Positions 14,850-37,400 of a DNA stretch of 38,769 nt are shown in pieces. The notes beneath the pieces were generated by a model. The model did not search any database and had not been told where the DNA came from. It saw only the letters and a program-made list of their open reading frames with translations. Origin of the DNA: Clostridia bacterium (GTDB lineage: Bacteria > Bacillota > Clostridia > Christensenellales > Borkfalkiaceae); contig JAFTPR010000009.1 in NCBI GenBank assembly GCA_017463145.1, forward strand, positions 1-38,769. The letters are read 5' to 3'. A program made the translations under genes and the position numbers. How positions within the stretch are numbered: the stretch's first letter is position 1; each line of letters begins with the position of its first letter.

Positions 14850-14877
14850 AATAAGGAAGAGAAAAAAGGAGTTGTCT

Positions 14878-18057: not shown

Positions 18058-18067
18058 GGTATAAGTA

Positions 18068-22279: not shown

Positions 22280-22285
22280 AAAAGA

Positions 22286-22314
22286 AGTATAGCACTTTTT
22301 ATTAAAAAAGTCAA
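22286..22314 (-). promoter_or_regulatory. Sigma-A promoter of the AraC gene (leaderless transcript predicted)
   Basis: On the - strand TTGACT (22314-22309), a 17-base spacer and TATACT (22291-22286). Six bases separate the -10 from the ATG, so transcription should begin at or next to the start codon. Confidence 0.75.
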
Positions 22315-22329
22315 CCAAAAGCACAAAAA

Positions 22330-22367
22330 CAGTATCGAAAATCTTAAAAATAGTGTCGTTTTTCCTA
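22330..22367 (+). promoter_or_regulatory. Candidate AraC direct-repeat operator
   Basis: Two copies of AGT(A/G)TCG start at 22331 and 22352, exactly 21 bp (two helical turns) apart. In each copy the seven bases are followed by a four-base A or T run and TC.TA. The downstream copy ends against the -35 box of the SDR promoter, the typical position for an AraC-type activator. Confidence 0.55.
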
Positions 22368-22396
22368 TTGACCCGTTTTGCCTTGTATAGTATAAT
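22368..22396 (+). promoter_or_regulatory. Sigma-A promoter of the SDR-dehydroquinase operon
   Basis: TTGACC (22368-22373), a 17-base spacer and TATAAT (22391-22396), 31 bases before the SDR start codon. Confidence 0.75.
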
Positions 22397-22427
22397 AAAA
22401 GCAAAGTAAAAAAAGGAGAACGAATAT

Positions 22428-23225
22428 ATGTTTCAAGGCGAATTTAACGGAAAAACGTTGCTTGCAACGGGCGGTGCTTCGGGTATGGGCTTGTTGCTTT
22501 GCGAGGAATTTTTAAAATACGGCGGCAATGCAGTTTTGGTGGATATCAACGCCGACGCGCTCGCTTTACACGTACAACGGCTAAACGAACGTTACGCAGG
22601 AAAAGTGATCGGCGTGCCTTGCGACGTGCGGGATTACAAGCAGGTATGCAACGCCTGCGACGAGGCGGTAAAAGCGTTTAACAGTATCGACGTGCTCGTA
22701 AATCTTGCAGGCGGCGCGGAAATAAGAATGTTGGGCGTAGCGGGAGACTTGGAGTTTTGCGACGTGCCTATCGAGGTGTATGATTGGGGGTTGGACGTGA
22801 ATTTGCGCGCGCAGATGTACTTCGATCACGCCGTGTTCAAACAAATGCGGGCGCAAATGAGCGGCGTAATCGTCAATATTGGTTCGATAGCCGGTATGGA
22901 AGGTTGCCCTAGGAATATTGCGTATTCCACCTCCAAGAGCGGAGCGGTAGGTGGGCTTACTATGTCCGTTGCGCTAGCGGGTGCAAAGTATAACGTACGC
23001 TGTGTCGCCCTTTCGCCCGGACCTGTCCTCACCCGTAAGGCAATGAGCAATATGAAAACGTTGCTCGGTAGAGCGGGCGAACCGATTGAGCTTGTGAATA
23101 TGATTCTGTTTTTGGCTTCGTCGCACGGTGCGTTTATTACAGGAGAGAATATTTTAATGGATGGCGGGCGTATCCTTATGCGGGATAAGGTGCATGGGGA
23201 TAATAATAAGTACGGTGAAAAATAA
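22428..23225 (+). CDS. Short-chain dehydrogenase/reductase (SDR)
   Basis: An NAD(P)-dependent SDR oxidoreductase of 265 residues. The cofactor motif TGGASGMG is at 14-21, D39 in VLVDIN after beta-2 favours NAD, NLAGG (92-96) is the structural motif, and the catalytic residues are S153 (IGSIAG), Y166 and K170 (YSTSK). After the active site it has PGPVLT and the C-terminal ITGENILMDGGR typical of the classical subfamily. AGGAG precedes ATG 22428. Its stop overlaps the next start (TAATG at 23223-23227), so it is translationally coupled to the dehydroquinase-like gene. A polyol or cyclitol dehydrogenase feeding that enzyme is plausible, but the substrate is not readable. Confidence 0.9.
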   Translation: MFQGEFNGKTLLATGGASGMGLLLCEEFLKYGGNAVLVDINADALALHVQRLNERYAGKVIGVPCDVRDYKQVCNACDEAVKAFNSIDVLVNLAGGAEIRMLGVAGDLEFCDVPIEVYDWGLDVNLRAQMYFDHAVFKQMRAQMSGVIVNIGSIAGMEGCPRNIAYSTSKSGAVGGLTMSVALAGAKYNVRCVALSPGPVLTRKAMSNMKTLLGRAGEPIELVNMILFLASSHGAFITGENILMDGGRILMRDKVHGDNNKYGEK

Positions 23226-23989
23226 TGAGAAAGGCTACTTTTTTGGAATACGATAAGCCGCTTTTATGTGCGGTAGTACAGGACCGTTCGCCGCAAGAAA
23301 TGATTGTAACGATCAACAACAGCCTTTACGACGGCGCGGAAGCGTTTTGCATACAGTTGGAAATTTTAAAGCCCGAATATCGTAATGAACAGACCTTGAA
23401 AGAGATATTCTCCGCTTGCAGAGGTTTGCCGATTTATATTACGAGCTACCGTAAATATTTTAGCGAGCATTTGACGGACGACGATTGTGCGGAACTGCTC
23501 CTTCTCGGCGCAAAATGCGGGGCGACGCTTTGCGACGTACCTGGGGATTTTTATTGCCCCGAACCGCACGAGTTGACGGAGGATATAGCGGCGATAGCAA
23601 AGCAGAAAAAGTTAATTGAACGCATACATGCCTTGGGATGTGAAGTGTTGATGTCCTCTCATTTGCATGGATTTTACGACGAAAAAGAGGTGAACCGCAT
23701 TGCTTTGGCGCAACGGGAACGGGGCGCAGACGTAGTTAAAATTGTCAACTTTGCAACAACGGAGGAAGAGTTTTTGCAAAACGTGCAAATTTGCACGCGG
23801 TTAAAACGTGTGCTCAATTGTCCGTATTTGTATCTTGCCAGTGGTGAGTACGGTCGCTTTATCCGTCAGACGGGCGGAAAGCTGGGGTGCTGTATGTATC
23901 TTGGCGTGGAGCGGTATCATACGGGGTCTTTTGTGGAACAACCGATTTTGCGTTCTCTGAAAGTCATTCGGGATAATATGGTGTTTTAA
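23225..23989 (+). CDS. Type I 3-dehydroquinate dehydratase-like lyase
   Basis: A 254-residue TIM-barrel protein of the AroD (class I dehydroquinase) family, which forms a Schiff base with a lysine to dehydrate 3-dehydroquinate. The catalytic set appears in order: E46 (QLEIL), R76 (TSYR), His in SSHLHG (H146 or H148), the Schiff-base lysine K172 (ADVVKIVNF), an Arg in GRFIRQTGG, and S235/Q239 in GSFVEQP. The overall identity to biosynthetic AroD motifs is loose, so it may act in catabolism of quinate-, shikimate- or cyclitol-like compounds with its coupled SDR rather than in the shikimate pathway. No other aro gene is nearby. It is closed by a strong terminator. Confidence 0.72.
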   Translation: MRKATFLEYDKPLLCAVVQDRSPQEMIVTINNSLYDGAEAFCIQLEILKPEYRNEQTLKEIFSACRGLPIYITSYRKYFSEHLTDDDCAELLLLGAKCGATLCDVPGDFYCPEPHELTEDIAAIAKQKKLIERIHALGCEVLMSSHLHGFYDEKEVNRIALAQRERGADVVKIVNFATTEEEFLQNVQICTRLKRVLNCPYLYLASGEYGRFIRQTGGKLGCCMYLGVERYHTGSFVEQPILRSLKVIRDNMVF

Positions 23990-25158: not shown

Positions 25159-25262
25159 ATTGAAAATCCCGTTTTTGTTTTATAGGGCGGATTATTGCCA
25201 AAAACAAGGCGTGGATCTTGTGGTATTTTGTCGGGTTATTACGCTTTTTGTCAAATGAGATA

Positions 25263-25295
25263 CGCCCCGTTTGCGGTAATACCGCAAACGGGGCG
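25263..25295. terminator. Strong 15-bp hairpin downstream of rpe
   Basis: CGCCCCGTTTGCGGT and ACCGCAAACGGGGCG form a perfect 15-bp stem with a 3-base loop. It lies 19 bases past the rpe stop and would end the SIS-DeoR-transaldolase-rpe operon, yet its T-rich side (CGTTTTCTTG) is on the + strand. It may work in both directions, or protect the rpe mRNA 3' end instead. Confidence 0.65.
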
Positions 25296-25313
25296 CGTTT
25301 TCTTGTTGAAATA

Positions 25314-25964
25314 TTATGCTTCAAGGGCGCTGATAAACGCTGCTTTGTCCTCGGCTTTCAAACAAGCCGAGCCTGCCACGAGTACGTTTGCGCCGTTCTC
25401 TTTGCAAACGGGAGCGGTTTTTATGTCAACGCCGCCGTCCACTTCGATATGGCAAGTGGGATTGACTTTTGCTAAGGTTTGTTTCAGCCAAGCCACTTTC
25501 GGCATCATATCTGCCATAAAGCTTTGTCCGCCGAAGCCTGGCTCAACCGTCATTACCAACACAAGCGCGCACTTTTCAAGGTACGGCTCGATTGTTTCAA
25601 TCGGGGTTTTGGGTTTTACAACGATCCCCGGTTTTACGCCGTATTCCGCTATTTTATCAAGCGTAGCCGAAATATTTTCGGGCGTGTCCGCTTCTACGTG
25701 TACGGTGAGATAGTCTGCGCCCGCTTTACAGAACTGTTCGACGTAGCGAAGGGGGCGGTCAATCATCAAATGTACGTCCAAAATGCGGTTGGTGATTTTA
25801 CGGAGCGCGGAAACGGTCGAATACCCGAAAGAAAAGTTGGGCACGAACAAGCCGTCCATCACGTCTACGTGAAACCATTTTGCGCCTGCGCTTTCCAATA
25901 GTCGCACGTCCCGTTCCATATGCATAGGGTCAGCCGCTAACAAAGAGGGGGCTACGATATTCAT
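25314..25964 (-). CDS. rpe: Ribulose-phosphate 3-epimerase family protein
   Basis: Rpe interconverts ribulose-5-phosphate and xylulose-5-phosphate; relatives act on allulose-6-phosphate and tetrulose-phosphates. The 216-residue TIM barrel shows the family set: MNIVAPSLLAAD at the start, HVDVMDGLFVPN (metal His/Asp), LDVHLMI, MTVEPGFGGQ and VDGGV with the second metal aspartate. I chose ATG 25964 because AAGGAG lies six bases upstream and the family begins at this point; an in-frame upstream extension runs into the transaldolase gene. It is the last gene of a four-gene - strand operon, 10 bases after the transaldolase. In this context it may be a pathway-specific paralogue rather than the housekeeping enzyme. 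Confidence 0.92.
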   Translation of the reverse strand: MNIVAPSLLAADPMHMERDVRLLESAGAKWFHVDVMDGLFVPNFSFGYSTVSALRKITNRILDVHLMIDRPLRYVEQFCKAGADYLTVHVEADTPENISATLDKIAEYGVKPGIVVKPKTPIETIEPYLEKCALVLVMTVEPGFGGQSFMADMMPKVAWLKQTLAKVNPTCHIEVDGGVDIKTAPVCKENGANVLVAGSACLKAEDKAAFISALEA

Positions 25965-25974
25965 ACGCTTCTCC

Positions 25975-26655
25975 TTATTGGCAATCGAGCATGGTTTTGC
26001 CTTCGCCGCAAAGCTTTTCAAAATCGGTGATGAAATCTTCAACGGCGCTCGTTACGCAAGCGTTTTTGATGAGGTTTTCAATTACGTCGGGCGCAACCGT
26101 CGCCGCGCCTACGCCGTATGCGCAAAGCTCTTGTACTTGGTTGGAGTTTTTGAAGCTTGCCGCAAGAATTTGGGTTTTGAAACCGTTGTTATCGAAGATG
26201 TCTTGAATCATTTTCGTACTGTCGATACCGTTTGCGCCGAGATTGTCGATACGGTTGACGTACGGAGCGGCGTAGTCTGCGCCTGCTTTTGCCGCAAGGT
26301 AAGCTTGCATAGGCGTATAGATTGCCGTTGCGGTGATTTTAAATCCTTCTTTGGAAAGCGCCTTCATTGCTTTTAAGCCCTCGGGAATGGTAGGAACTTT
26401 AATATAGGTGTTTTTACCTAAGATTTCTGCCATTTTATGCGCTTCCTCAATCATTCCTTCCGCCGTGCGGGAGATGACTTGCGCGTGCAATTCCGCATCC
26501 TCTCCGATATACGCGCGGATTTCTTTGAGTACCTCGTAAGGGTTGCGTCCGCTCTTTGCAAGAATCGAGGGGTTTGTGGTTACGCCGTCGATAGGATAGT
26601 ATTGGTAGATTGTCTTGATTTTTTCGATGTTTGCGTCATCAATAAGCAGTTTCAT
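25975..26655 (-). CDS. Transaldolase / fructose-6-phosphate aldolase-like (FSA type)
   Basis: A class I aldolase of the small TalC/FSA type, 226 residues. The Schiff-base lysine is K86 in TYIKVP, at the same place as in E. coli FSA. Other family marks are IDDANIEKI near the start, DGVTTNPSI (24-31), TATAIYTPMQAYLAAKAGAD and APYVNRIDN. Such enzymes transfer or release dihydroxyacetone units from ketose phosphates; members of this size also serve dedicated pathways such as sulfoquinovose breakdown. GAGGT precedes ATG 26655. It sits between the DeoR gene and rpe in one operon, which argues for a specific catabolic role. Confidence 0.9.
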   Translation of the reverse strand: MKLLIDDANIEKIKTIYQYYPIDGVTTNPSILAKSGRNPYEVLKEIRAYIGEDAELHAQVISRTAEGMIEEAHKMAEILGKNTYIKVPTIPEGLKAMKALSKEGFKITATAIYTPMQAYLAAKAGADYAAPYVNRIDNLGANGIDSTKMIQDIFDNNGFKTQILAASFKNSNQVQELCAYGVGAATVAPDVIENLIKNACVTSAVEDFITDFEKLCGEGKTMLDCQ

Positions 26656-26670
26656 AAGATACCTCGTATA

Positions 26671-27387
26671 TTAAGATTTTTTATTTGTCAAAATTTTTAT
26701 TTTGTCGTCGCGGCGGCATACGAAAGAGAAGCCTGTGCGACCGATTTTCGTTTGATCTGCAACAATCAGTACTTTTTTGGAACGGGCGATCATAATGCGG
26801 TCGATAATCGCTTCTTCTGCATGACAGGTTGATATTTCGCCGTCCGCGCTTACGCCGTCTACGGACAGGATTGCCCAATCTGCGCCAAAGCGGTTCAAGT
26901 GTTCCTGCGTGTCCGCGCCGTATGTAAAATTGCTGCGGGAGTTGATTGCCCCGCCTAGCAAGATTACGCGGAAAGAGGGAATTGCGCCCAGCGTGGTTGC
27001 AACGGAAAGCGAATTTGTAACAACGCTTAAATTGTTTTTGTTTTTCAATTCTTCCGCAAATAACAGGGTTGTCGTGCCCGAATTGATAAACAGCGTGTCG
27101 CCGTCCTGTATTAGTTGCGCGGCAGAACGGGCGATTTCCCGTTTTTGTTCGTAGTATTGTATGGAGGAGGGGAGAGTGTCGTTGCCGCCCGGTAATACTG
27201 CGCCGCCTGCCATACGGATAAGCTTACCCTCGTTTGCCAATACGTCTAAATCGTTACGAATCGTGACGAGAGAGGCGTTGAGCCGTTGGCTCAGGTCCGC
27301 AATGTATACTTTCTGTTCCTTATATAAAATGTCTAATATTTTATTTCGTCTGACACCGATCTTGCTCTTTCCGTTTTCCCCTGTCAT
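26671..27387 (-). CDS. DeoR-family transcriptional repressor
   Basis: A 238-residue sugar-operon repressor. The N-terminal winged helix-turn-helix has the family pattern RRNKILDILYKEQKVYIADL, then ASLVTIRNDLDVLANEGKLI, ending in the hinge MAGGAVLP. The C-terminal DeoRC effector domain has FINSGTTTLLFAEEL, VVTNSL and a phosphosugar-type IGRTGFSFV segment. Such regulators usually sense a phosphorylated intermediate of the pathway they control. The ribosome site GGGAG lies in the end of the preceding SIS gene, and the gap is four bases. It is the only intact regulator in the 25.3-35.7 kb sugar locus, so it is the best candidate for controlling all three operons. Confidence 0.92.
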   Translation of the reverse strand: MTGENGKSKIGVRRNKILDILYKEQKVYIADLSQRLNASLVTIRNDLDVLANEGKLIRMAGGAVLPGGNDTLPSSIQYYEQKREIARSAAQLIQDGDTLFINSGTTTLLFAEELKNKNNLSVVTNSLSVATTLGAIPSFRVILLGGAINSRSNFTYGADTQEHLNRFGADWAILSVDGVSADGEISTCHAEEAIIDRIMIARSKKVLIVADQTKIGRTGFSFVCRRDDKIKILTNKKS

Positions 27388-27391
27388 AGGT

Positions 27392-27997
27392 TTATTCTCC
27401 CTTTTTATTCAGCCGTTCGCCGACTGCACCGCCCGGATGGATAAGGGCAAATTGTTCGCTACGATAGGCGGTTTCTTCGATAATTGCCGCTTGTAAAGCG
27501 TGGAATATCATACAAAGCGCCGTCGTGCTCGTCGTGCCTTGCATATTATATTTATCCGTTTCGCGGTTGACGTACTGTTTGAGTACGACGTCTGCCGATT
27601 TAGCCAAAGGGGAATCGAGATTCTCCGTGACCGTAATAACGGAAACGCCTTTTGCTTTACAAATGTCGAGGATAGGGAACAGCTCTTTCGTTGCGCCGCC
27701 GCGGGATGCAAAGACCATTACGTCGCCTTTTTGTAAAAAGCCGCTTCCGCCGTGTACCGCTTCTGCGGGGGAGATAAAACGGGCGGGGCGTTCGATACAG
27801 CACATTAAATGCGCGAAATGTTGGCAAATAATGCCCGAATGACCGCAACCTGCCGCGCCGATACGCTCCGCTGAGGATAAAAGGGCTACCGCCTGGGAAA
27901 AAGCCTCCTCGTCAAAGTACTTTTTCATCTCGCTGATACATTCGGCTTCGATATCGTATGCCGCTTTTGCGGCGTTTAATGCGTTTTCACTCAACAT
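27392..27997 (-). CDS. SIS-domain sugar-phosphate isomerase (KpsF/HxlB-like)
   Basis: A 201-residue single SIS domain, the phosphosugar-binding fold of arabinose-5-phosphate isomerases (KdsD/GutQ) and 6-phospho-3-hexuloisomerase. Landmarks are GAAGCGHSGIICQHFAHL (49-66), SPAEAVHGGSGFL, FASRGGATKEL, VITVTENLDSPLAKSADV and the C-terminal HPGGAVGERL. In KdsD the first loop reads GVGKSG; here it is GCGHSG. The CBS pair of KdsD is absent. AAGGAG precedes ATG 27997. It is the first gene of the SIS-DeoR-transaldolase-rpe operon and likely an aldose-ketose phosphate isomerase of that pathway. Confidence 0.85.
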   Translation of the reverse strand: MLSENALNAAKAAYDIEAECISEMKKYFDEEAFSQAVALLSSAERIGAAGCGHSGIICQHFAHLMCCIERPARFISPAEAVHGGSGFLQKGDVMVFASRGGATKELFPILDICKAKGVSVITVTENLDSPLAKSADVVLKQYVNRETDKYNMQGTTSTTALCMIFHALQAAIIEETAYRSEQFALIHPGGAVGERLNKKGE

Positions 27998-28037
27998 AAC
28001 GTTTACACTCCTTATAGGGACTTAACTGACAATATAT

Positions 28038-28066
28038 ATTATAGCACGTTTGCGGCTTTTTGGCAA
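28038..28066 (-). promoter_or_regulatory. Sigma-A promoter of the SIS-DeoR-transaldolase-rpe operon
   Basis: On the - strand TTGCCA (28066-28061), a 17-base spacer and TATAAT (28043-28038). The -10 overlaps a 10-bp palindrome AATATATATT (28031-28040) that could bind a repressor. Confidence 0.75.
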
Positions 28067-28147
28067 GCAAAATTTTGCGAAAAGAAAATAATTTTTTCCA
28101 ATTACAAAAAACGGTATTGGTTTTTGAAAAAAATTGCCTTAAAATTC

Positions 28148-28176
28148 TTGACTAAATTAAAAAAAAGATGTATACT
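28148..28176 (+). promoter_or_regulatory. Sigma-A promoter of the TIM-YjbQ-AEC-FGGY operon
   Basis: TTGACT (28148-28153), a 17-base spacer and TATACT (28171-28176). The sequence 28144-28183 matches the - strand promoter at 35753-35714 at 33 of 40 positions, which suggests common control. Confidence 0.8.
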
Positions 28177-28216
28177 ATAATCGATACTTATGAAACAAAA
28201 AAAGAGGTTGTTTACT

Positions 28217-28915
28217 ATGAATGAAAAAAGAGTGAAATTGCCGTTTTTCGAGATTGGACCTAAATCCTATTTATACGGGGACGATATCCTTGATTTGGCG
28301 AAAGCGGCGGACGCGGCTTCGGAAAAATACGGCGTGGATATTATTTTCACAACGCCGATTGTGGATATCCGTCGCGTAAGAGAAGCGACGAAAAATATTC
28401 ACGTATTTGCGCCGCATATGGATCCAATCGTACCCGGCAGAGGACTTGCTGACGTATTGCCCGAATCGCTTGTGGCGGCGGGTGCGGACGGCGTAATGCT
28501 TAACCACGTGGAAAAACCGATTTCTTTTGAAACGTTGGAAGCGACGATTAAGAGAGCGAACGAGGTGGGCTTGACGACAATTGTTTGCGCCGATTCCCTT
28601 GCGGAGGCAAGCAAGATTGCCACGCTTGCTCCCGATATTATCGTTGCCGAACCGTCCGAATTGATCGGTACGGGCGTGAGCGTCGGTAAGGAGTACGTGG
28701 AGGCTGCCACAAAATCTGTCAAGGACGTGAATGCGGATATTTTGGTGCTTACCGCCGCAGGTATTTCCAACGGCGAGGACGTGTACAATACGATTATTGC
28801 GGGTGCTGATGCAACGGGTTCTTCGTCGGGTGTGGCGAAGGCGAAAGACCGGGCGGCTATGGTAGACGAAATGATCAGCGCTGTTCGTCGCGCTTGGGAC
28901 GAACGTCATCAATAA
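28217..28915 (+). CDS. Triose-phosphate isomerase-like sugar-phosphate isomerase
   Basis: A 232-residue TIM-family enzyme, closer in length and motifs to archaeal TIM than to the ~250-residue bacterial glycolytic enzyme. Visible residues are K16 (EIGPKSYL), the electrophile H97 with E99-K100 (NHVEK), the catalytic base E145 in AEPSELIGTG, and the phosphate loop GSSSGV (201-206). Such paralogues isomerise tetrulose phosphates in erythritol/threitol pathways (the EryH/LerI group), so a non-glycolytic role is likely here. I chose ATG 28217 because AAAGAGG (28200-28206) precedes it; the in-frame ATG 28190 lies only ~7 bases from the predicted transcription start and has no ribosome site. Confidence 0.85.
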   Translation: MNEKRVKLPFFEIGPKSYLYGDDILDLAKAADAASEKYGVDIIFTTPIVDIRRVREATKNIHVFAPHMDPIVPGRGLADVLPESLVAAGADGVMLNHVEKPISFETLEATIKRANEVGLTTIVCADSLAEASKIATLAPDIIVAEPSELIGTGVSVGKEYVEAATKSVKDVNADILVLTAAGISNGEDVYNTIIAGADATGSSSGVAKAKDRAAMVDEMISAVRRAWDERHQ

Positions 28916-28958
28916 AGAAAACAAAAATAATATATAAAAAATTTCGGAGGATAAAAAA

Positions 28959-29579
28959 ATGGAATTCAAAATTTATCAAAAAGAGTTGGAATTGCAATCG
29001 AGAGGCTGGATCCCCACGTTCCACGACATCTCGAAAGAAGTGAACGAGATCGTTGCTGCTTCGGGTATTAAGAACGGTACGGTTGCTATCGTTTCCCACC
29101 ACACGACGTGCTCGGTTATGGTGCAAGAATGTTCGCACGATATCGATTCGTTCGACCTTGAATATTTGCAGAACGACCTGCTCGATATTATTCGCAAGAT
29201 GATCCCCGACTACACGAAAGAGGGCGACTACCGTCACCCCGGTCCTATTCACGCAAAGTACGGCCGTCACGTAAACGAACCGGGCGACTTCTCCTCAATG
29301 AACACGGACGGACATCTTCGTTCTTGCTTCTTCGGCAGAAGCGAAACCATGACGATTAAAGACGGCGTTGTAGACGGCGGAAGATTTGCGCATATCTACT
29401 TCATTGACTGGGACCACGTGCTTGCGCGTCGTCGTCAAGTGAATATTACGGTTATGGGTACGGCAGAAGACGTAGGCGACCGCAAGTGGAACAACGGCGA
29501 AGTGATCGACACGAAGCACAAGTTCACGGAAGAAGAAAAAGCGTACGATATTCACTACGATTTGCAACAACAACGTTAA
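28959..29579 (+). CDS. YjbQ/UPF0047-family protein
   Basis: A 206-residue member of the YjbQ (UPF0047) family, a trimeric jelly-roll-like fold with a conserved His/metal pocket; some members have weak thiamine-phosphate synthase activity but the true role is unknown. Family marks are FHDISKEVNEIVAASGIKNG, SHHTTCSVMVQE (47-58) and DGHLRSCFFGRS with TMTIKDG. It is about 65 residues longer than the usual ~135-140, with an insertion containing DYRHPGPIHAKYGRHVNEP and a charged C-terminal tail. The codons are noticeably biased toward C-ending forms compared with its neighbours, a sign of high expression. GGAGG lies eight bases before ATG 28959. Placement between an isomerase and a sugar transporter suggests a catalytic or mutarotase-like role (inference). 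Confidence 0.82.
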   Translation: MEFKIYQKELELQSRGWIPTFHDISKEVNEIVAASGIKNGTVAIVSHHTTCSVMVQECSHDIDSFDLEYLQNDLLDIIRKMIPDYTKEGDYRHPGPIHAKYGRHVNEPGDFSSMNTDGHLRSCFFGRSETMTIKDGVVDGGRFAHIYFIDWDHVLARRRQVNITVMGTAEDVGDRKWNNGEVIDTKHKFTEEEKAYDIHYDLQQQR

Positions 29580-29601
29580 TCGCAAAGAAATTTCAGTAAA
29601 G

Positions 29602-29640
29602 ATTGTCAAACCGTATGTTTGTGCGGTTTGACAATTTTCT
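29602..29640 (+). terminator. Intra-operon terminator / attenuator
   Basis: ATTGTCAAACCG and CGGTTTGACAAT pair in a perfect 12-bp stem (29602-29635), followed by TTTTCT. It stands 22 bases after the YjbQ gene and before the transporter gene, so it probably lowers expression of the distal genes relative to TIM and YjbQ. Confidence 0.75.
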
Positions 29641-29672
29641 ATAAGCCCGTTTTTAAGAGAGGTTTGAAACGT

Positions 29673-30665
29673 ATGGAATTGTTTTTAACCACGTTGCAAC
29701 AGGTAGCCGTATTGTTGATTTTTATTTTCGTGGGATATTTTCTCCGCAAAAAAGAGGTTATCAGCGAAAGCGGCAAAAAGGATCTTGCAAAGCTGTTGGC
29801 GAATTTGTTTGCTCCTTGTTACAGCGCAATGAGTTTGTCCACGATTATCAACGTAAAACAGATAGGGCAATATCTTTCGCTTATTTTGGCAGGTGCGGCA
29901 GTCACGGTGTTTGGGGTGTTGATATCGATTGTGTTGACGAAACCGTTGACAAAAGATAAATTGCAACGCAATATTTTGATATATGCGCTTGCATTCAGTA
30001 ATATCGGTTATTTCGGATATCCCGTCGTTGCTGCAATTTTCGGTGAGGTTATGCGCGCGCAGATGATGATGTTCTGCCTGCCTATGTCCGTGGCAATCAA
30101 TACGTACGGTTATCATATCCTTACTTCGGGTGTGGGGCAAACGGAAGAAACACCGAAATTTTCTCAACGGATCTCTTTCCTTTGGAAACCGCCCATGCTG
30201 GGATTTTACGCAGGTGTTATCCTTGGTTTGCTGTCTAGCGGGTTGAATTTTACTTTGCCAAAAATGCTTTTGGATATCTTATCTGTTGCAGGGCAATGCC
30301 AAAGCGCGCCCGCTATGCTCATTACGGGGGCGGTGCTTGCTAACGTGCCGTTCAAGCAGTTGTTTACTTCTTGGCGGCCGTACATTGTCGGCGCAATTAG
30401 GTTGCTTTGCCTGCCTTTATTGATGATGGGTGTATTTTGTCTTATCCGCTTATGTGGCGCGTCGGGCGCAATGTTTGCGCTCATATTCCGCCTTTCCGTA
30501 ATCGTATCTGCGCTCCCTGTGGGTATGAATACGGTTGTTTATCCCGAGTCTGTCGGGCAAGACAGTACAGAGGGCGCAAAGACGTGCTTTATGTCTTATC
30601 TTCTCGCCTTGGGAACAATGCCGCTGGTGTTTATGTTGATGGAAACAGTAGTGAAAATATTTTAA
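29673..30665 (+). CDS. AEC-family (auxin efflux carrier type) transporter
   Basis: A 330-residue integral membrane protein with about ten hydrophobic helices in two five-helix halves, the AEC/BART layout. The start MELFLTTLQQVAVLLIFIFV and the motif LLANLFAPCYSAMSLSTI are typical of the first repeat, and ALAFSNIGYFGYPV is the conserved unwound-helix motif. Bacterial AEC carriers move organic acids and related small solutes; the direction is not readable. I chose ATG 29673 because GAGAGG (29657-29662) precedes it; the in-frame upstream extension runs through the terminator hairpin. It lies between the YjbQ gene and a carbohydrate kinase, so it probably imports the substrate of the pathway. Confidence 0.88.
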   Translation: MELFLTTLQQVAVLLIFIFVGYFLRKKEVISESGKKDLAKLLANLFAPCYSAMSLSTIINVKQIGQYLSLILAGAAVTVFGVLISIVLTKPLTKDKLQRNILIYALAFSNIGYFGYPVVAAIFGEVMRAQMMMFCLPMSVAINTYGYHILTSGVGQTEETPKFSQRISFLWKPPMLGFYAGVILGLLSSGLNFTLPKMLLDILSVAGQCQSAPAMLITGAVLANVPFKQLFTSWRPYIVGAIRLLCLPLLMMGVFCLIRLCGASGAMFALIFRLSVIVSALPVGMNTVVYPESVGQDSTEGAKTCFMSYLLALGTMPLVFMLMETVVKIF

Positions 30666-30689
30666 CAGTAGTTTATCGGGAGTAATGCA

Positions 30690-32111
30690 ATGAAATATTT
30701 ATTGGGTATAGATATCGGTACAACCTCGTTGAAAGGATGTATATTCGACGAAAAGGGCAACGAGCTTGCCTCCGTTACCAAAGCGTATACGCTTATTACC
30801 GAGGGGGAACGGGTAGAGTTTCCCGCCGAACGGTATTTTGAGCTGTTTAAGGAAGCGTATGACGAGCTTGCCTCGCAATATCCAATCGACGCGTTTGCGA
30901 TTGACACGCAGGGCGAAACAATGATCTTTTTGGATAAAGAGGGCAAACCTCTTACGAATGCGATCGTATGGTTGGATAACCGCGCGGAAAAGGAAGCGAA
31001 AGCAATTGAAAAGCACTTTGGATTGCGTACCGTGTACGAGATTACAGGTCAAACGGAAGTTCCCGCGGGGTATCCTGCTTCTAAGGTGCTGTGGTTAAAA
31101 AACAACTGCCCCGAAGTGTTTGCAAAGTTGGATAAAATCCTTCTTTTGGAGGATTATCTTCTGTATCGTATCACGGGGAAATTTGTTTGCGAACGTTCGC
31201 TGTATTCCTCCACGTTGTATCTCGATATCCGTACGGGCAACTATTGGAAAGATATGCTCGATTTTATCGGTATTAGCGAAAGCTATTTGCCGACGTTGCA
31301 CGAAAGCGGTGAAAGAGTAGGCGAATATAACGGCGCAGTTGTCTGTACGGGCGCGCTTGATCAAATATCGGGATTTATCGGTTCGGGTATCGTCAAAGAG
31401 GGGAGCATTAGCGAAATGACGGGTACTGCGCTTGCCGTGTGCGCGCTTTCGCGCGTCATTCCGCCCTATTTCGAGGGAATAAAAGTACCTGCGTATTACG
31501 TTGCCAAAGGCAAGTATTGCTTGTTGATGTGGGCGCCTACAGCGGGTATGGTAATGGAATGGTACAGAAAGAATTTTTACGACAACGCCGATTATAAGCG
31601 TATTAATGAGGAGGCGGAAAACGTGCCGCTCGGTTCGGAGGGGCTTGTGGTATCCCCCAATATGCGCGGAAGCGTTATGCCTGAAAACGATTCGGAGCTC
31701 AAAGGCGGCGTATACGGTATTGATTTGAAGCATACACGCGGACATTTTACGCATGCCATTATGGAAGGGATTGCTTGTTTGTTACGACAATACCTTGAAT
31801 ACCTTGCATTGCCCGTGGAAGAAGTTATTTCTATTGGCGGCGGTGCGAAAAGCCCGCTGTGGTTGCAGATCAAAGCGGATATTACAGGTAAGAAAGTGGT
31901 TACGTTAAAAAATAAAGAAACGGGCTGTTTGGGAACGGCAATCTATGCAGGCTACGGCTATGGTATGTATCAGGATATCGATAGCGCCGTACAAGATTTG
32001 GTAGAAAGAAAGAGTGAAACGAAACCCTCTGCCAAGAAATCGGTTGCAGATGCGGTGTATCAAAGATATATAGCCTTAGACGGGCTGTTCTTAAAAAGAG
32101 AAGGTTTGTAA
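30690..32111 (+). CDS. FGGY-family carbohydrate kinase
   Basis: A 473-residue sugar or polyol kinase of the FGGY (xylulokinase/glycerol kinase) family. The N-terminal phosphate-1 motif is GIDIGTTSLKG (6-16), the substrate-side motif is AIDTQGETMIFLD, and IVWLDNRAEKE is the family's first signature. The C-terminal half has the second actin-like domain with GGGAKSPLWLQIKADITGK and CLGTAIYAGYG. The length is close to the usual ~490-500. The substrate is probably a ketose or polyol; with a TIM-like isomerase and transaldolase beside it, a tetritol, pentulose or hexulose is plausible. GGGAG precedes ATG 30690. It is the last gene of the + operon. Confidence 0.92.
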   Translation: MKYLLGIDIGTTSLKGCIFDEKGNELASVTKAYTLITEGERVEFPAERYFELFKEAYDELASQYPIDAFAIDTQGETMIFLDKEGKPLTNAIVWLDNRAEKEAKAIEKHFGLRTVYEITGQTEVPAGYPASKVLWLKNNCPEVFAKLDKILLLEDYLLYRITGKFVCERSLYSSTLYLDIRTGNYWKDMLDFIGISESYLPTLHESGERVGEYNGAVVCTGALDQISGFIGSGIVKEGSISEMTGTALAVCALSRVIPPYFEGIKVPAYYVAKGKYCLLMWAPTAGMVMEWYRKNFYDNADYKRINEEAENVPLGSEGLVVSPNMRGSVMPENDSELKGGVYGIDLKHTRGHFTHAIMEGIACLLRQYLEYLALPVEEVISIGGGAKSPLWLQIKADITGKKVVTLKNKETGCLGTAIYAGYGYGMYQDIDSAVQDLVERKSETKPSAKKSVADAVYQRYIALDGLFLKREGL

Positions 32112-32123
32112 CAATAATGAAAA

Positions 32124-32160
32124 AACACCCGATTGCGTATGAAACGCAATCGGGTGTTTT
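32124..32160. terminator. Bidirectional terminator between convergent sugar operons
   Basis: AAACACCCGATTGCGT and ACGCAATCGGGTGTTT form a perfect 16-bp stem with loop ATGAA, flanked by an A run and T-rich sequence. It serves the FGGY kinase gene (+) and the ceramidase-family gene (-). Confidence 0.9.
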
Positions 32161-32170
32161 ATGTTAAGTT

Positions 32171-33529
32171 TTATTTTCTTAAACCGTCAAGGATTTTCAC
32201 GCCCTCGGAAATAATCGTTTCCGCAACGCCTGCCTTGTAGTTAGAAGATCTTGCCTCGTAGCCGCCTTCGTCGTAAGAATCTTTCATCGGGAAGTACCCG
32301 CGAGAACCGTTGGTTAAGCAAGTAGGGCAAACCATTTTCCAGCCTGCCGCTTCCTTTAAGCCGAGTCCGATACCCGTGAAAGGCTCGCCGGGAATACCGA
32401 TAAACGCCACATCGCCGATTTTTATTGCCGTTAAGTTCATCGGGAAGAATGCGGGTCCGTTTTCAAGGCGTACTTTTCTACCTGCGTCGGCAACCATGGT
32501 GGTGAGCATCATACCTTTATAAGGAAGTTCTCCGTCCCTGTTTTCCTGGTGCAGTTTAAAGATATAACGCGCTTCTTCCATCTCGTCGGGCGTGGGCATA
32601 TTGGAAGCCACGCTTATAATTTCCTCTACGAATTGGATTTTATCAACGGGTAAAAATTCTACCTTTTCATAAACGGACATCAAAGCGCCTGCTACTACGT
32701 TACCCATATGACGAGAATGTGCATATCCGCGCGTAACGTCGTCAAAGTCGTTAAACATTCCGTTTAAGTCACCTCCGACGGGTTTTACGTTTACGTGATT
32801 GATATCGCCTTGTGCGCCGTTAAAGAATATGCACTTGGTGTTATCAACCGCTTTCTCGAAAATTCTTCTTGTGAAGCCGGGCCAATCCGCCGAAGATTTA
32901 TTGCTGCCGATAACGTCGGGGTGGTTGCCGTAGTTTCCGATAACGATATTGTCGCCGCATTCTCTTTCAAAGCGAATAACGTTTACGCGCTCGTCCAACA
33001 AGCCGATGGATTTTACAATATCGGGATTATTCACACCGGGATTGGTTTTGGTTGTACCGTCTTTCATTAAATAACGGCGGTTAAAACCAATACGTTCGGC
33101 TTTGCTGACACCAATACCCATTCTGGCAGGCTTCAAATCCGCCATCGCAAAAACGATTGAGTCGGAGATTTTCTTCATAACGAAAGAATCGTATTCCCTG
33201 TCAATATCGTTCGTTAAAGCGTCTTCTCTGCCAAAACAAGGTGCAACGTGCGTATGCGTGGTGTGGATAAAAATTGCCTTTTTATCAAGCCCCGTTGCTT
33301 TTGATGCATATTCCCTCGCCGCTTCGTAATAAGTGGTGTCTGCGGCTTCGCTGTCGATGGAAATGAGAGCAACCGTTACGCCGTCTTTTTCGACGGCGAC
33401 GGTGTTGATCTCTAAATCGTCAAGGTTGGCTTCGTTCAAGCGCTGATGAAAATATCCGCGCAGATTCACGCCGATCGGGGGAGTGATCGCAATTCTCGAA
33501 AACCCGACTTTGATATCAAAAGTACTCAT
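32171..33529 (-). CDS. Neutral/alkaline ceramidase-family hydrolase, N-terminal domain only
   Basis: A 452-residue protein matching the catalytic domain of neutral non-lysosomal ceramidases, zinc amidases that cleave the N-acyl bond of ceramide. The zinc ligands are visible in THTHVAP (H92/H94) and GNHPD (H203), with PGEPFTGIG and a Tyr-rich C-terminal EGGYEARSSNYKAG in the expected places. The family's nucleophilic serine in the NRS-type motif is not found: here the segment is GFNRRYL (149-154). There is no signal peptide, so it acts in the cytoplasm, unlike secreted ceramidases, and the C-terminal Ig-like domain is missing. AAGGAG precedes ATG 33529. As third gene after NagA- and NagB-like enzymes, it may hydrolyse an N-acyl or other bond on an amino sugar (inference). 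Confidence 0.8.
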   Translation of the reverse strand: MSTFDIKVGFSRIAITPPIGVNLRGYFHQRLNEANLDDLEINTVAVEKDGVTVALISIDSEAADTTYYEAAREYASKATGLDKKAIFIHTTHTHVAPCFGREDALTNDIDREYDSFVMKKISDSIVFAMADLKPARMGIGVSKAERIGFNRRYLMKDGTTKTNPGVNNPDIVKSIGLLDERVNVIRFERECGDNIVIGNYGNHPDVIGSNKSSADWPGFTRRIFEKAVDNTKCIFFNGAQGDINHVNVKPVGGDLNGMFNDFDDVTRGYAHSRHMGNVVAGALMSVYEKVEFLPVDKIQFVEEIISVASNMPTPDEMEEARYIFKLHQENRDGELPYKGMMLTTMVADAGRKVRLENGPAFFPMNLTAIKIGDVAFIGIPGEPFTGIGLGLKEAAGWKMVCPTCLTNGSRGYFPMKDSYDEGGYEARSSNYKAGVAETIISEGVKILDGLRK

Positions 33530-33553
33530 TTACGTTCTCCTTATCCTTACGGA

Positions 33554-34543
33554 TTAGTAGCCAACCTTTTCCCAACAATCGAACGGAGCTGCAAGCTCTT
33601 CGCTTACATAAACCTGCGTTTTCATAAGCTGCAACATAGAGCTGGGGATAAGCGGCGTAACAGGTCCGTGAAGAACCAAACGGCTCGTCATTCTCTGCCA
33701 AGAGGAGAACGTACCGTTCGTCAACAATGCGTGTACTTCGATTCTCTCTCTCGCATTCTTAACGTCAACAGGACCGATCGTAGCTGCCTTGGGGGGTACG
33801 TCTGCAATGTAGCCGGACTGACCGAATACACCGTGCAAGGAGTTTTGCGCAACGGTAAGAGGATGAAGATCCACAATACGCGCTTTCATATTCAACCATT
33901 CGTCGATTTGCGCTTTGGTGGGTTCAACTGCGGGATCGAAGCCTTCGGGGAAGAAGTCCTGTACGGGATCGATAAACGCCATATGACCCGTCCAACCGGG
34001 AGAGGAGCTGCAAATATCTGCGCCGCCTTCGCCGCATTCGGTAATCATATCGGAATAGTTTGCGATATTCTTGTTGGTGGGGTAATGTACGTTGGACAAA
34101 GGCATACGAAGCTTTTCGTCGATTTGGTATACTAAGTATTTGAGCATGGAGTGCGCAAAACCCGCTTTATACGTTTCGGGAGCAATGTTGCCGTCTTGGT
34201 CTGCCCATTCGTCCATTGCGAAGATGTGTACGTTTCTGCAATCTACTTTGAAGTAGTTGATAAGTTGTGCAAGAGGGATATACGTATCAGGCTCGGGGTT
34301 GCCGAGGATAAGCGTGATCTTTCTGTTGTTTTCCGAAGCTTCCTTGATACGGGAGAAAAGAGTAGCGATAAGAACGGGATGAGGGTTCATCATAACCTTG
34401 ATGTTGAAATCGGGGTTAGCGTGTTTTTCCAAATCTGTTCCGCTGATCTTTCTCAGCTTTTCGCAAAGCGCTCTGTCCTTAAAGGGCACGTAGCTTGCGG
34501 GGGTAAAGTCGAAATCGGTTGCGGGGTCAAAAATTTTGTTCAT
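33554..34543 (-). CDS. NagB-like glucosamine-6-phosphate deaminase/isomerase family protein
   Basis: A 329-residue relative of glucosamine-6-phosphate deaminase, longer than the usual 240-270. D111-E112 in FAMDEW match the proton-abstracting DE of NagB. The second active-site motif, DGHIAFNEP in NagB, reads TGHMAFIDP (185-193): H187 is kept, the Asp is Thr185, and NE is Ile-Asp. This suggests a different substrate or reaction, for example isomerisation without deamination. An N-terminal extension of ~50 residues precedes the usual start. AAAGGAG lies eight bases before ATG 34543, inside the end of the NagA-like gene; the gap is two bases. The codons are more biased than in surrounding genes, as for a well-expressed protein. 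Confidence 0.82.
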   Translation of the reverse strand: MNKIFDPATDFDFTPASYVPFKDRALCEKLRKISGTDLEKHANPDFNIKVMMNPHPVLIATLFSRIKEASENNRKITLILGNPEPDTYIPLAQLINYFKVDCRNVHIFAMDEWADQDGNIAPETYKAGFAHSMLKYLVYQIDEKLRMPLSNVHYPTNKNIANYSDMITECGEGGADICSSSPGWTGHMAFIDPVQDFFPEGFDPAVEPTKAQIDEWLNMKARIVDLHPLTVAQNSLHGVFGQSGYIADVPPKAATIGPVDVKNARERIEVHALLTNGTFSSWQRMTSRLVLHGPVTPLIPSSMLQLMKTQVYVSEELAAPFDCWEKVGY

Positions 34544-34545
34544 TT

Positions 34546-35679
34546 TTATTCTCCTTTAAATATAGTTTTCTTAACGTTGAATTTGTCGTCAACTATGATT
34601 AAGTTGGCGAAATTTCCTTCTTCAATGTACCCTACGCGGGCAAGATTAAGCGCCCTTGCGGGGTTGTACGAGCCGAAGCGGAATGCGTCTACCACCGAGC
34701 AGCCCGTATGTACCATAAAGTTGCCGCAAGCGATATCCAAGGTCAAGCCAGACCCTGCAATTTCGCCTGCATTGTCGAAATGGATATCCGTCGCTTCCTC
34801 AAAGCCTGCGGGGACAGGTCCGTCGCAGACGAATTGATCGGAAATGAGGATTACTCTGTCGTCGCCCTTGATGCGGCGTACCAAGCGTTGCATATAGGGA
34901 ACGACGTGTATGCCCATTCTGTCCGAGATAAGCTCGGCATAAATTTCCTTGTTGTAGTTTACAGCCTCGTCTACACAAACGCCGCGACACTCGGAATAGT
35001 GTTCAATCGTGCCCGTAGCGTTTGTGTGGTGCGTGGCGATTTTTAAGCCGTAGGGGATATATTTTTCCACCTGTTGCGGCGTTGCTTCGCTGTGTGCCAC
35101 CGCAAAAACGATATTCGGAATCTCTTCTTTTACGTCCTGTACGAACTGTTCGATTCCTTCCCGTTCGGGGGCGAAACACCATACCTTGGCGCTGTTTTTC
35201 ACTTTCTTTACAATATCTATATATTCTTCTCGAATAACGGCGTCTTTCCATACGTTCTTGTCCCGTTCGCATCCGAAGTTGGGGCTAAGGTAAGGACCTT
35301 CCATATAGAAGCCGACAAAGTTTTTAAAATCGCCGTTTTCGTACGCATTCAAAATATCGTCCGCAGCTTTGAGATAATTTTCTTTGTTAAGGTTGTTGTA
35401 CAGGGCGGGTAGCACACCCGTTACGCCGTGTTGCAACATATATTCGGACGTGGCTTTCGGCTCTTCAAAAATCCATTTGTTGTCTGCCGCGTGGGTGTGG
35501 ATATCGATAAGCCCCGGACCGACGTACAAGCCCTCTGCATCGATAATCTCGCAGTTTTCGGGCAGGGCAACGTCCTTAGATTTGCCGTATTTTTTTATCT
35601 TCTCGCCTTCGATTAAAATCGTTCCGTTAGGAATTAAGTAATCCCGCATAACGATAGTGGCGTTAACGATCGCTTTCAT
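34546..35679 (-). CDS. NagA-like N-acetylglucosamine-6-phosphate deacetylase
   Basis: An amidohydrolase-superfamily enzyme of 377 residues, the usual NagA length. Residues in order: IDIHTH (H61, H63), the metal-binding E127 in YMEGPYLSP, H196 in AHSEAT, H217-H218 in ATHHTNATG, and the catalytic D281 in LISDQF. All positions expected of a deacetylase are therefore present, though the surrounding motifs differ from classical NagA (HTH for HxHG, SDQF for TDAM). It should remove an N-acyl group from an amino-sugar phosphate. It is the first gene of the - operon with NagB-like and ceramidase-like genes; GAGGTG precedes ATG 35679. Confidence 0.87.
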   Translation of the reverse strand: MKAIVNATIVMRDYLIPNGTILIEGEKIKKYGKSKDVALPENCEIIDAEGLYVGPGLIDIHTHAADNKWIFEEPKATSEYMLQHGVTGVLPALYNNLNKENYLKAADDILNAYENGDFKNFVGFYMEGPYLSPNFGCERDKNVWKDAVIREEYIDIVKKVKNSAKVWCFAPEREGIEQFVQDVKEEIPNIVFAVAHSEATPQQVEKYIPYGLKIATHHTNATGTIEHYSECRGVCVDEAVNYNKEIYAELISDRMGIHVVPYMQRLVRRIKGDDRVILISDQFVCDGPVPAGFEEATDIHFDNAGEIAGSGLTLDIACGNFMVHTGCSVVDAFRFGSYNPARALNLARVGYIEEGNFANLIIVDDKFNVKKTIFKGE

Positions 35680-35701: not shown

Positions 35702-35749
35702 TAATAGCTATTACGTTATTATTATACATATTTTTTTTCTTTTAGTCAA
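35702..35749 (-). promoter_or_regulatory. Promoter and palindromic site of the nagA-nagB-ceramidase operon
   Basis: On the - strand TTGACT (35749-35744), a 17-base spacer and TATAAT (35726-35721). A perfect 12-bp palindrome TAATAGCTATTA (35702-35713) lies at the predicted transcription start and could be a repressor operator. Confidence 0.7.
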
Positions 35750-35753
35750 GAAT

Positions 35754-35960
35754 ATTTCAACAACTTTTTTAAAAAAACAATTTTACTTTCCAAAAACAAA
35801 TTTTTTATTTTCTTTTTGCAAAATTTTTCCATTGAAAACGTTTTTTCTTTTTGCTTGATATAAAAAATTATTGTTTGACGGTAACGGCTCTGTATCGCAA
35901 CGGAGAAATGCCAAACTGTTTTTTGAGTACGCCAACGGGAATTTTTAAAAATATATACGC
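35754..35960. other. AT-rich spacer between nagA promoter and csoR promoter
   Basis: The 360 bases between the nagA-like gene and csoR hold two promoters at the ends. The middle is A/T homopolymer-rich (long T and A runs around 35760-35865) and then contains a probable AraC remnant at 35868-35945. I see no intact gene. Confidence 0.6.
35868..35945 (-). pseudogene. Probable C-terminal remnant of an AraC-family regulator
   Basis: Reading the - strand to the TAA at 35868-35870 gives VGVLKKQFGISPLRYRAV. FKKQFGISPLRYR-type sequence is the hallmark end of AraC DNA-binding domains. No upstream coding sequence in any frame continues the helix-turn-helix: the next ~100 bases contain the csoR promoter. 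This looks like the tail of a deleted regulator that once stood upstream of the nagA-like operon. A chance match is possible because only ~25 codons remain. Confidence 0.45.
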
Positions 35961-37325: not shown

Positions 37326-37400
37326 TGGCTGGGGCGAAGTGATTCGAACACCCGAATGACGGAGTCAGAGTCCGTTGCCTTACCGCTTGGCGACGCCCCA
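37326..37400 (-). tRNA. tRNA-Gln (anticodon CUG)
   Basis: The 75-base - strand sequence folds as a cloverleaf: acceptor TGGGGCG/CGCCCCA, D-arm GCCAAGCGGTAAGGC, anticodon stem ACGGA/TCCGT with loop CTCTGAC (anticodon CTG), and T-arm GGGTG-TTCGAAT-CACTT (one G-U pair). The discriminator is G and the 3' CCA is encoded. It decodes CAG (Gln). It stands alone with its own promoter and terminator. Confidence 0.95.

Follow-up and report, generated by a model that had tools for sequence, protein, structure and literature searches.

A candidate catabolic regulon for an N-acetylated amino sugar, with a conserved TIM-YjbQ-SIS module, in a Clostridia bacterium

Eleven genes in three units

The window analysed here is a stretch of 38,769 nucleotides from Clostridia bacterium (Christensenellales; Borkfalkiaceae), positions 1 to 38,769 of contig JAFTPR010000009.1 in assembly GCA_017463145.1. 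Eleven adjacent open reading frames (ORFs) at 25314-35679 form units of four genes (-), four genes (+) and three genes (-) that together resemble a sugar-catabolic system built around a protein of the YjbQ (UPF0047) family. An earlier note, made from the sequence letters, had named these eleven genes; ORFs and family searches recovered all of them in the order and on the strands it gave, with the NagB-like and ceramidase-like assignments being the weaker ones. Window families were scored against Pfam, TIGR, PRK and NCBIfam models with their cut-offs, and three starts were refined by ORF reading (rpe 25964, TIM 28217, AEC 29673), as the listed TTG start of rpe at 26042 falls inside the FSA gene.

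25314..25964, -, rpe, ribulose-phosphate 3-epimerase (TIGR01163, 250 bits vs cut-off 213)
25975..26655, -, FSA-type aldolase/transaldolase (PRK12656, 218 vs 214 bits)
26671..27387, -, DeoR-family regulator (best match AgaR, 156 vs 260, under cut-off)
27392..27997, -, SIS phosphosugar isomerase, KpsF/GutQ-like, with the SIS domain alone (best match GutQ, next KpsF, both under cut-off)
28217..28915, +, TIM paralogue, archaeal-type, with an altered active site (PRK04302, 188.6 vs 132 bits)
28959..29579, +, YjbQ/UPF0047 protein, 206-amino-acid long form, tentatively proposed as a phosphosugar isomerase (PF01894, 82.4 vs 27 bits)
29673..30665, +, AEC-family membrane carrier, proposed importer (PF03547)
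30690..32111, +, FGGY sugar kinase, XylB-like but under the XylB cut-off (PF00370/PF02782)
32171..33529, -, ceramidase-family hydrolase (PF04734, 21 bits vs 32, under cut-off)
33554..34543, -, NagB-like isomerase/deaminase without the NagB phosphate contacts (NagB models, about 30 bits)
34546..35679, -, NagA-like amidohydrolase (deacetylase; 157.5 vs the NagA cut-off of 225.65, under)

The FSA-type aldolase is over the cut-off of PRK12656 and under that of TIGR00875 (222 vs 246), the YjbQ protein is under the cut-off of the TIGR00149 YjbQ model (59.1 vs 67.75 bits), and the NagB-like protein has no Pfam match, its score of about 30 bits standing against curated NagB cut-offs of 237 and 326. 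No signal peptide was seen by eye in the ceramidase-family hydrolase. The rpe gene encodes the sole Rpe found in the host genome, a 76%-complete draft, and probably also serves housekeeping for that reason. The window TIM, by contrast, is an extra copy, since the host genome also encodes a second, canonical TpiA.

Family searches found neither a dehydrogenase nor RpiB among the eleven genes, and no phosphotransferase system (PTS) gene is among them. The nearest dehydrogenase is an SDR gene at 22428-23225, 2 kb off and in another unit. A polyol pathway, which the earlier note had offered as one substrate class, was rejected because the set encodes no dehydrogenase.

Matching promoter regions ahead of operons 2 and 3

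The earlier note had reported promoters and terminators for the three units, and candidate sites are indeed placed at the unit ends.

28148..28177, +, promoter of operon 2 (TTGACTAAA...TGTATACTA), facing out of the SIS-TIM gap
35720..35749, -, promoter of operon 3, of the same type as the operon 2 promoter, ahead of the NagA-like gene
28073..28091, +, first copy of a regulatory box, TTTTGCRAAAAGAAAATAA, ahead of the TIM gene
35805..35823, -, the box again, ahead of the gene for the NagA-like protein
32122..32160, no strand, hairpin terminator where operons 2 and 3 converge

A sigma-70-like promoter of operon 1 (28066-28038, -) faces out of the SIS-TIM gap, and a hairpin at 25262-25296 closes that operon. 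The promoters of operons 2 and 3 are likewise sigma-70-like, at 28148-28176 (+) and 35749-35721 (-). Site counts across the region prove little, with a modest excess both of promoter-like sites (28 vs 17.1 in shuffles, sd 4.2) and of terminator-like sites (22 vs 17.7, sd 5.1); the better evidence is their placement together with the conservation of the promoter. In the window, the regions upstream of TIM and of the NagA-like gene match at 33 placements of 16-mers (mean of simple shuffles, 0.4), and the same comparison in three genomes of the same genus gave 13, 34 and 27 placements against 0.25-0.45. The two regions align in all four genomes, and their box and promoter sit at nearly equal spacing. 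In the 1.44-Mb host draft genome the operon 2/3 promoter pattern has exactly 2 matches (reversed control, 0) and the exact box only 2 occurrences; both patterns were written from the very sites that they find, so that the point is exclusivity and not discovery. Only exact copies of the box count, because a search of the host genome that allowed up to 3 mismatches gave 12 sites for the box and 14 for its reversed control. Judged by these upstream sequences, operons 2 and 3 have the same kind of promoter region and are probably co-regulated.

TIM, YjbQ and SIS form a conserved module

A YjbQ scan of named genomes returned 584 relatives, of which the best 80 were kept; all are from metagenome-assembled genomes, many of them from ruminant guts and not independent. 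Near YjbQ in these 80 loci we counted SIS in 73, TIM in 69, FGGY in 56, FSA in 39, DeoR in 35, ceramidase-like in 30, NagB-like in 16, NagA-like in 11 and Rpe in 4, while a recount with more queries and a 9-kb limit gave FGGY in 55 and ceramidase-like in 32 of the 80. The gene directly adjoining YjbQ is TIM in 31/80 loci, SIS in 46/80 and one or the other in 70/80. In terms of gene neighbourhood, TIM, YjbQ and SIS are therefore a conserved module, and the YjbQ gene, which the earlier note had placed in the route, is a regular member of these sister loci. The ceramidase-like gene, which it had also included, is a frequent companion but not a constant one (10/20 NagB-seeded and 32/80 YjbQ-seeded loci).

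Another possibility is that YjbQ might make thiamin phosphate in the manner of ThiE and so support thiamin-dependent sugar enzymes without being a sugar-pathway enzyme itself, as the NCBIfam model named secondary thiamine-phosphate synthase would have it and as a study of gut Bacteroidetes, which counts YjbQ as a ThiE alternative, also suggests (PMC5613172). We regard this as very improbable here: TIM or SIS adjoins YjbQ in most loci, the window protein is under the cut-off of that model, and no thiamin-synthesis gene is among the eleven, thi genes elsewhere in the genomes not having been searched for.

In one locus (L106) the genes TIM-SIS-YjbQ-FSA-FGGY-NagA-ceramidase-NagB all share a strand and are spaced by -19 to 120 bases, and partial versions of this same-strand run, also with small gaps, occur in L137, L144, L101 and L118. 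Other loci carry a different entry enzyme. An AraA/FucI-like isomerase occurs in 37/80 YjbQ loci, with FGGY present in 37/37 of those; it shares just 1 locus with NagB-like genes (16/80; p 4e-4), and the NagB there is distant. The commoner FucI-like type is under the family cut-offs and the AraA-like type over them; FucI in L236 and the names of some neighbouring genes were assigned by eye. A PIG-L deacetylase together with a distant NagB-like gene is found near the SIS/YjbQ module in L090, L095, L100, L105 and L130. Because AraA/FucI-like nearly excludes NagB-like and because PIG-L/NagB-like loci exist, the TIM-YjbQ-SIS module seems, from gene content, to receive its substrate from different entry enzymes in different loci, among them two kinds of pair made up of a deacetylase and a NagB-like protein.

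Other features of the sister loci were also recorded. MtlD-like and PfkB proteins are encoded in L095, L100, L105 and L130. A second, shorter YjbQ with TIM, an AraA-like isomerase and FGGY lies beside the long YjbQ in L088, L097, L126, L141 and L143, and an Amidohydro_2 protein is present in 9/80 YjbQ loci, including those five. In L136 a glycoside hydrolase family 39 gene (PF01229, 6083-7324) ends an FGGY-ceramidase-like run, a hint at a source glycan.

NagB-like and YjbQ genes co-occur across the class

We took the class samples for NagB, YjbQ and RhaA as the same 391 genomes, since they have the same size and shared handles, genomes with no match being listed in part. NagB-like proteins were found in 20 genomes and YjbQ relatives in 46, with both in 18, so that a YjbQ relative is present in 18/20 NagB genomes vs 28/371 others. 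The YjbQ count includes the shorter form, which is the only form in two of the 18 (G491 and G674). With the host genome excluded the counts are 17/19 vs 28/371 (p 7e-16), and for the long form alone 15/19 vs 16/371 (p 2e-15), these Fisher p-values ignoring descent. By genus, counted by hand, the association is 14/16 vs 16/206. The control, L-rhamnose isomerase RhaA, occurs in 120/391 genomes and is itself enriched with NagB (11/19 vs 108/371, p 0.018) and likewise with YjbQ (p 1e-7); sugar-rich lineages thus account for some of the co-occurrence. The NagB-YjbQ association nevertheless holds both in RhaA-positive genomes (10/11 vs 20/108) and in RhaA-negative ones (7/8 vs 8/263).

Seeding on NagB instead gave 20 regions from 20 genomes (5/8 non-own genomes of one scan, the remaining three having been taken separately, and 15/19 of the class scan), some of which stop at contig ends. 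Near the NagB-like gene we found NagA-like in 17, ceramidase-like in 10 and SIS/TIM/YjbQ in only 3. The earlier note had raised the prospect of relatives that carry the three operons far apart and independently: far apart they often are, but the co-occurrence counts show that they are not independent. The NagB-like and YjbQ-module genes are, by their distribution over genomes, coupled yet often encoded apart. G110 is a case between the two, where one of four NagB-like copies lies near TIM and a short YjbQ (L065).

Two neighbouring pathways under a common regulator could also explain such a pattern, one for a ketose (SIS, TIM, YjbQ, FGGY, FSA) and one for amino-sugar salvage (NagA-, NagB- and ceramidase-like) that bypasses the kinase. 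In G078, G080 and G102 the one part is on a different contig from the other, they are seldom adjacent in the NagB-seeded loci, and 28 genomes have YjbQ relatives without NagB. Yet NagB without a YjbQ relative occurs in just 2/20 genomes, both parts are joined in the single runs L106 and L137, and the promoters are common to both. In G080, moreover, TIM and FGGY stand beside NagA-NagB with YjbQ and SIS elsewhere, so that the genes divide elsewhere than at the supposed border between the two pathways. We therefore consider two separate pathways unlikely. The single catabolic route over three units that the earlier note had put forward is well supported by the common promoters, the co-occurrence and the single-strand runs elsewhere (L106), although its interpretation as a whole is only partly supported.

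Active-site residues point to free sugars as probable substrates

Residues were compared with E. coli K-12 proteins as references. In NagB we take the phosphate contacts to be loop 41-43, R172 and K208, and the catalytic residues to be D72, D141, H143 and E148. In the NagB-like proteins R172 and K208 are present in 0/17 proteins with a letter at those positions, and the loop is one residue shorter in 18/18, with position 41 changed, position 43 deleted and position 42 still G in 6/18. Of the catalytic set, D72 is kept in 18/18 and H143 in 17/17, E148 is E in 7/17 and D in 10/17, and D141 is present in none. For NagA, E131, H195, H216, H251 and D273 are presumably the metal and catalytic residues and R227 the phosphate contact; the former are kept in 12/12 NagA-like proteins, while R227 is R in 1/12 and H in the window protein. 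Since the phosphate contacts are lost, the NagA-like and NagB-like proteins probably act on the free sugar, ahead of the kinase. Action of this pair on a phosphosugar does not fit these losses.

In classical use of N-acetylglucosamine and N-acetylgalactosamine (GlcNAc/GalNAc), the pairs NagA-NagB and AgaA-AgaS act. If such a route ran here, the NagA/NagB-like proteins would likewise act on a phosphorylated N-acetylhexosamine, with TIM, Rpe and FSA belonging to ordinary triose- and pentose-phosphate metabolism. The locus resembles that route in having a NagA-like deacetylase, a NagB-like protein and a DeoR regulator nearest to AgaR, and the family names and the sole copy of Rpe also favor it. 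Unlike it, the window enzymes are without phosphate contacts, and a kinase and three isomerases are added; the NagA-like and NagB-like proteins are far under family cut-offs, the TIM active site is altered in a genome that has a canonical TpiA, and there is no PTS gene among the eleven. We find the classical route quite improbable, and rejected it on residues and scores.

For FSA we assume roles for Q59, T109 and Y131 and a Schiff base on K85; Q59, K85, T109, Y131, R134 and S166 of E. coli FsaA are kept in 40/40, with F57 and L107 changed in the window protein and most relatives. In SIS, H88, E111, E152 and H193 of KdsD are kept in 74/74 and K59 is H in 70/74, and the TIM-like proteins keep K13, H95, E97 and E165 with N11 replaced by G (70/70). 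YjbQ has invariant H47/H48, H119, R127 and D150. A profile of 21 ceramidase-like relatives matches solved neutral ceramidases (E 6e-26 to 2zws), and 20/21 members match PF04734 at E <= 0.001, the window protein being under the curated cut-off. In neutral ceramidase, zinc ligands and a catalytic Ser274 are presumably required; His, His, Glu and Tyr columns are invariant in the 21 members, and the Ser position is Asn in the window protein.

YjbQ beside sugar genes outside Clostridia

Plasmid records hold a YjbQ relative in 162 cases, 152 of them Enterococcus, and seven YjbQ or TIM regions among them were opened. The order PTS-aldolase-TIM-YjbQ occurs in Lacticaseibacillus paracasei and in Enterococcus faecium pQL50, aldolase-TIM-YjbQ in E. 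raffinosus, and PTS-YjbQ-rpe-hxlB in two E. faecium plasmids (L268, L274), whose HxlB is over the curated cut-off (208 vs 160 bits). Two Shinella plasmids (L272, L273) carry SDR-TIM barrel (epimerase-like)-TIM-YjbQ-FGGY. The TIM active site starts with NPK in Bacilli and GPK in Shinella, and all of these TIMs have an RG[ILMV] loop, which the archaeal TIM is without. As for 6-phospho-3-hexuloisomerase (HxlB), a true HxlB thus follows YjbQ and rpe in the two E. faecium plasmids, and the window SIS is a distant relative; unlike the HxlB system, the E. faecium clusters have no HxlA, and the window SIS is nearer KpsF/GutQ.

The family itself is widespread. UPF0047/YjbQ was found in 10/14 control genomes, and most of the solved YjbQ structures found carry only names such as 'hypothetical protein'. 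One paper lists YjbQ as of unknown function (PMC7954711), and another has yjbQ (PA5286) among genes changed with fructooligosaccharide, giving no function (PMC7044273). Literature searches gave no paper on a sugar role of YjbQ and none for YjbQ with a sugar kinase; judged by the listings, no pathway of this gene make-up was found.

The Shinella clusters L272 and L273 stand beside a sugar ABC (ATP-binding cassette) importer and a dihydroxyacetone kinase. The Enterococcus plasmid clusters are a second place to learn the function of YjbQ.

A proposed pathway for an N-acetylated amino sugar

We propose, at roughly even odds (about 0.5), that the eleven genes belong to a single catabolic regulon, whose substrate is most likely an N-acetylated amino sugar. 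What can be read from the DNA is gene order, shared promoters, co-occurrence, same-strand runs elsewhere and residues kept or lost; the following steps are a model fitted to these. The sugar would be imported unphosphorylated via the AEC carrier, a place that could be taken in two relatives by ribose-type ABC importer genes, which adjoin the NagA-NagB pair in L230 and L242 (ABC, LacI and ROK genes of the NagB-seeded loci being recognized by eye). Removal of the acyl group would fall to the NagA-like amidohydrolase, possibly together with the ceramidase-family hydrolase. The NagB-like enzyme would then isomerize and deaminate the free amino sugar, releasing ammonia and a ketose that the FGGY kinase would phosphorylate. 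The NagA/NagB-like pair would thus work where an AraA/FucI-like isomerase works in sister loci: both may give a free ketose to FGGY, because the contacts are lost and the isomerase largely replaces NagB. The TIM paralogue, YjbQ and SIS would then shift the carbonyl along the chain to give an ordinary glycolytic or pentose-phosphate phosphosugar, and the FSA-type aldolase and Rpe would process that product.

YjbQ is placed between TIM and SIS because its gene stands between neighbors of these two kinds, TIM and SIS/HxlB. That YjbQ takes part in such a carbonyl walk as an isomerase is a tentative idea that falls short of even odds; it may act as an epimerase instead. What the ceramidase-like protein does, and which sugar is used, are likewise inferred.

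The nearest described chemistry is tetritol catabolism (LerK-LerI-DerI-EryC), in which the carbonyl of erythrulose phosphates is shifted step by step by LerI and DerI, EryC being an epimerase (PMC10733421). The window would share with that system the action of a ketose kinase and, after it, a carbonyl shift by a LerI step together with another phosphosugar isomerase. It differs in having SIS for DerI, an added YjbQ and an archaeal-type TIM whose active site is altered, and in its AraA/FucI-like or NagA/NagB-like entry with no dehydrogenase among the eleven genes. A tetrulose-type pathway in the window would have FGGY make erythrulose 1-phosphate, TIM act as LerI, SIS as DerI (giving erythrose 4-phosphate) and YjbQ as an EryC epimerase, with FSA and Rpe handling the product. 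The described LerK, LerI, DerI and EryC steps map one to one (PMC10733421), and the Shinella clusters hold SDR, an epimerase-like TIM barrel, TIM, YjbQ and FGGY. Against this, the eleven genes include neither a dehydrogenase nor RpiB, and entry genes of the AraA/FucI-like and NagB-like kinds suggest longer sugars, which makes a tetrulose decidedly unlikely. Under our own proposal the chain would have one enzyme more than LerI/DerI, so that with TIM, YjbQ and SIS the carbonyl could travel the whole length of a longer ketose 1-phosphate.

The sulfo-TAL (transaldolase) route for sulfoquinovose uses the isomerase SqvD/SftI and the transaldolase SftT. The window shares an FSA-type aldolase with it, and the FucI-like genes of sister loci have the SftI model as their best match (64 and 37 bits, cut-off 700); it differs by its kinase, TIM, YjbQ and SIS, and no sulfonate gene was noticed, none having been searched for. 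Sulfoquinovose was rejected as a substrate on the weak resemblance of those FucI-like genes to SftI, with the same limit as to sulfonate genes.

A number of observations weigh against the proposed amino-sugar regulon. Some concern the enzymes. D141, catalytic in NagB, is lost in every NagB-like member, which makes deamination by this enzyme uncertain, and the printed alignment has Asn at the expected catalytic Ser of the window ceramidase-like protein. A ceramidase-family gene also occurs in 20/37 FucI-like loci, so the protein need not act on an N-acyl sugar. The YjbQ sequence itself gives no sign of isomerase function; YjbQ is reported to rescue a pdxB mutant (PMC7954711), and a thiamin-phosphate synthase activity is reported for it in a title cited in PMC4731195. 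By family scores the window SIS is closer to KpsF/GutQ than to HxlB, that is, to a ketose/aldose isomerase (KpsF) and not to a 3-keto/2-keto one, which makes any chain length for the sugar tentative. Others concern gene content and regulation. NagB-like is mostly not adjacent to SIS/TIM/YjbQ, 6/16 NagB-like genes of the YjbQ loci are of the distant type, and L060 and L230 carry a FucI-like gene together with NagA/NagB, so that these are not strict alternatives. A 30% relative of the NagB-like protein lies in a nucleoside cluster on a Vibrio nigripulchritudo plasmid (L271). The shared promoter is confined to four genomes of one genus: the split loci of G080 and of G078 showed no promoter sharing, and the exact pattern has no match in G035, of the same genus, which has SIS-TIM-YjbQ-FGGY and no close NagB. 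As to L271 itself, its neighbors are nucleoside hydrolase, adenosine deaminase and ribokinase, a setting that does not fit an amino sugar.

A broader generalization is more doubtful still. YjbQ proteins beside TIM-like genes could be a new class of phosphosugar ketol-isomerase, which with TIM and SIS would walk the carbonyl of a ketose 1-phosphate (C2 to C3, C3 to C4 and onward) and thereby erase the stereochemistry of the input. Many inputs (AraA/FucI-like, non-phosphorylated NagA/NagB, PTS) would then converge on a common intermediate, for example fructose 6-phosphate or pentulose 5-phosphate. If true, this would be a common way for gut bacteria to bring unusual sugars, free amino sugars among them, into central metabolism. 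The conserved neighborhood of YjbQ makes the role of this widespread, poorly understood family testable with purified proteins.

Other features of the window

At 21524-23989, to the left of the eleven genes, an AraC regulator gene is divergent from two others, which encode an SDR dehydrogenase and a protein like type I dehydroquinase. Two long ORFs at 14872-21523 resemble, by eye, an AddB/AddA nuclease-helicase pair, and a 1878-amino-acid ORF at 1811-7447 looks helicase-like on the same basis. The only RNA gene found in the window is a tRNA-Gln (CTG) at 37326-37400 (-).

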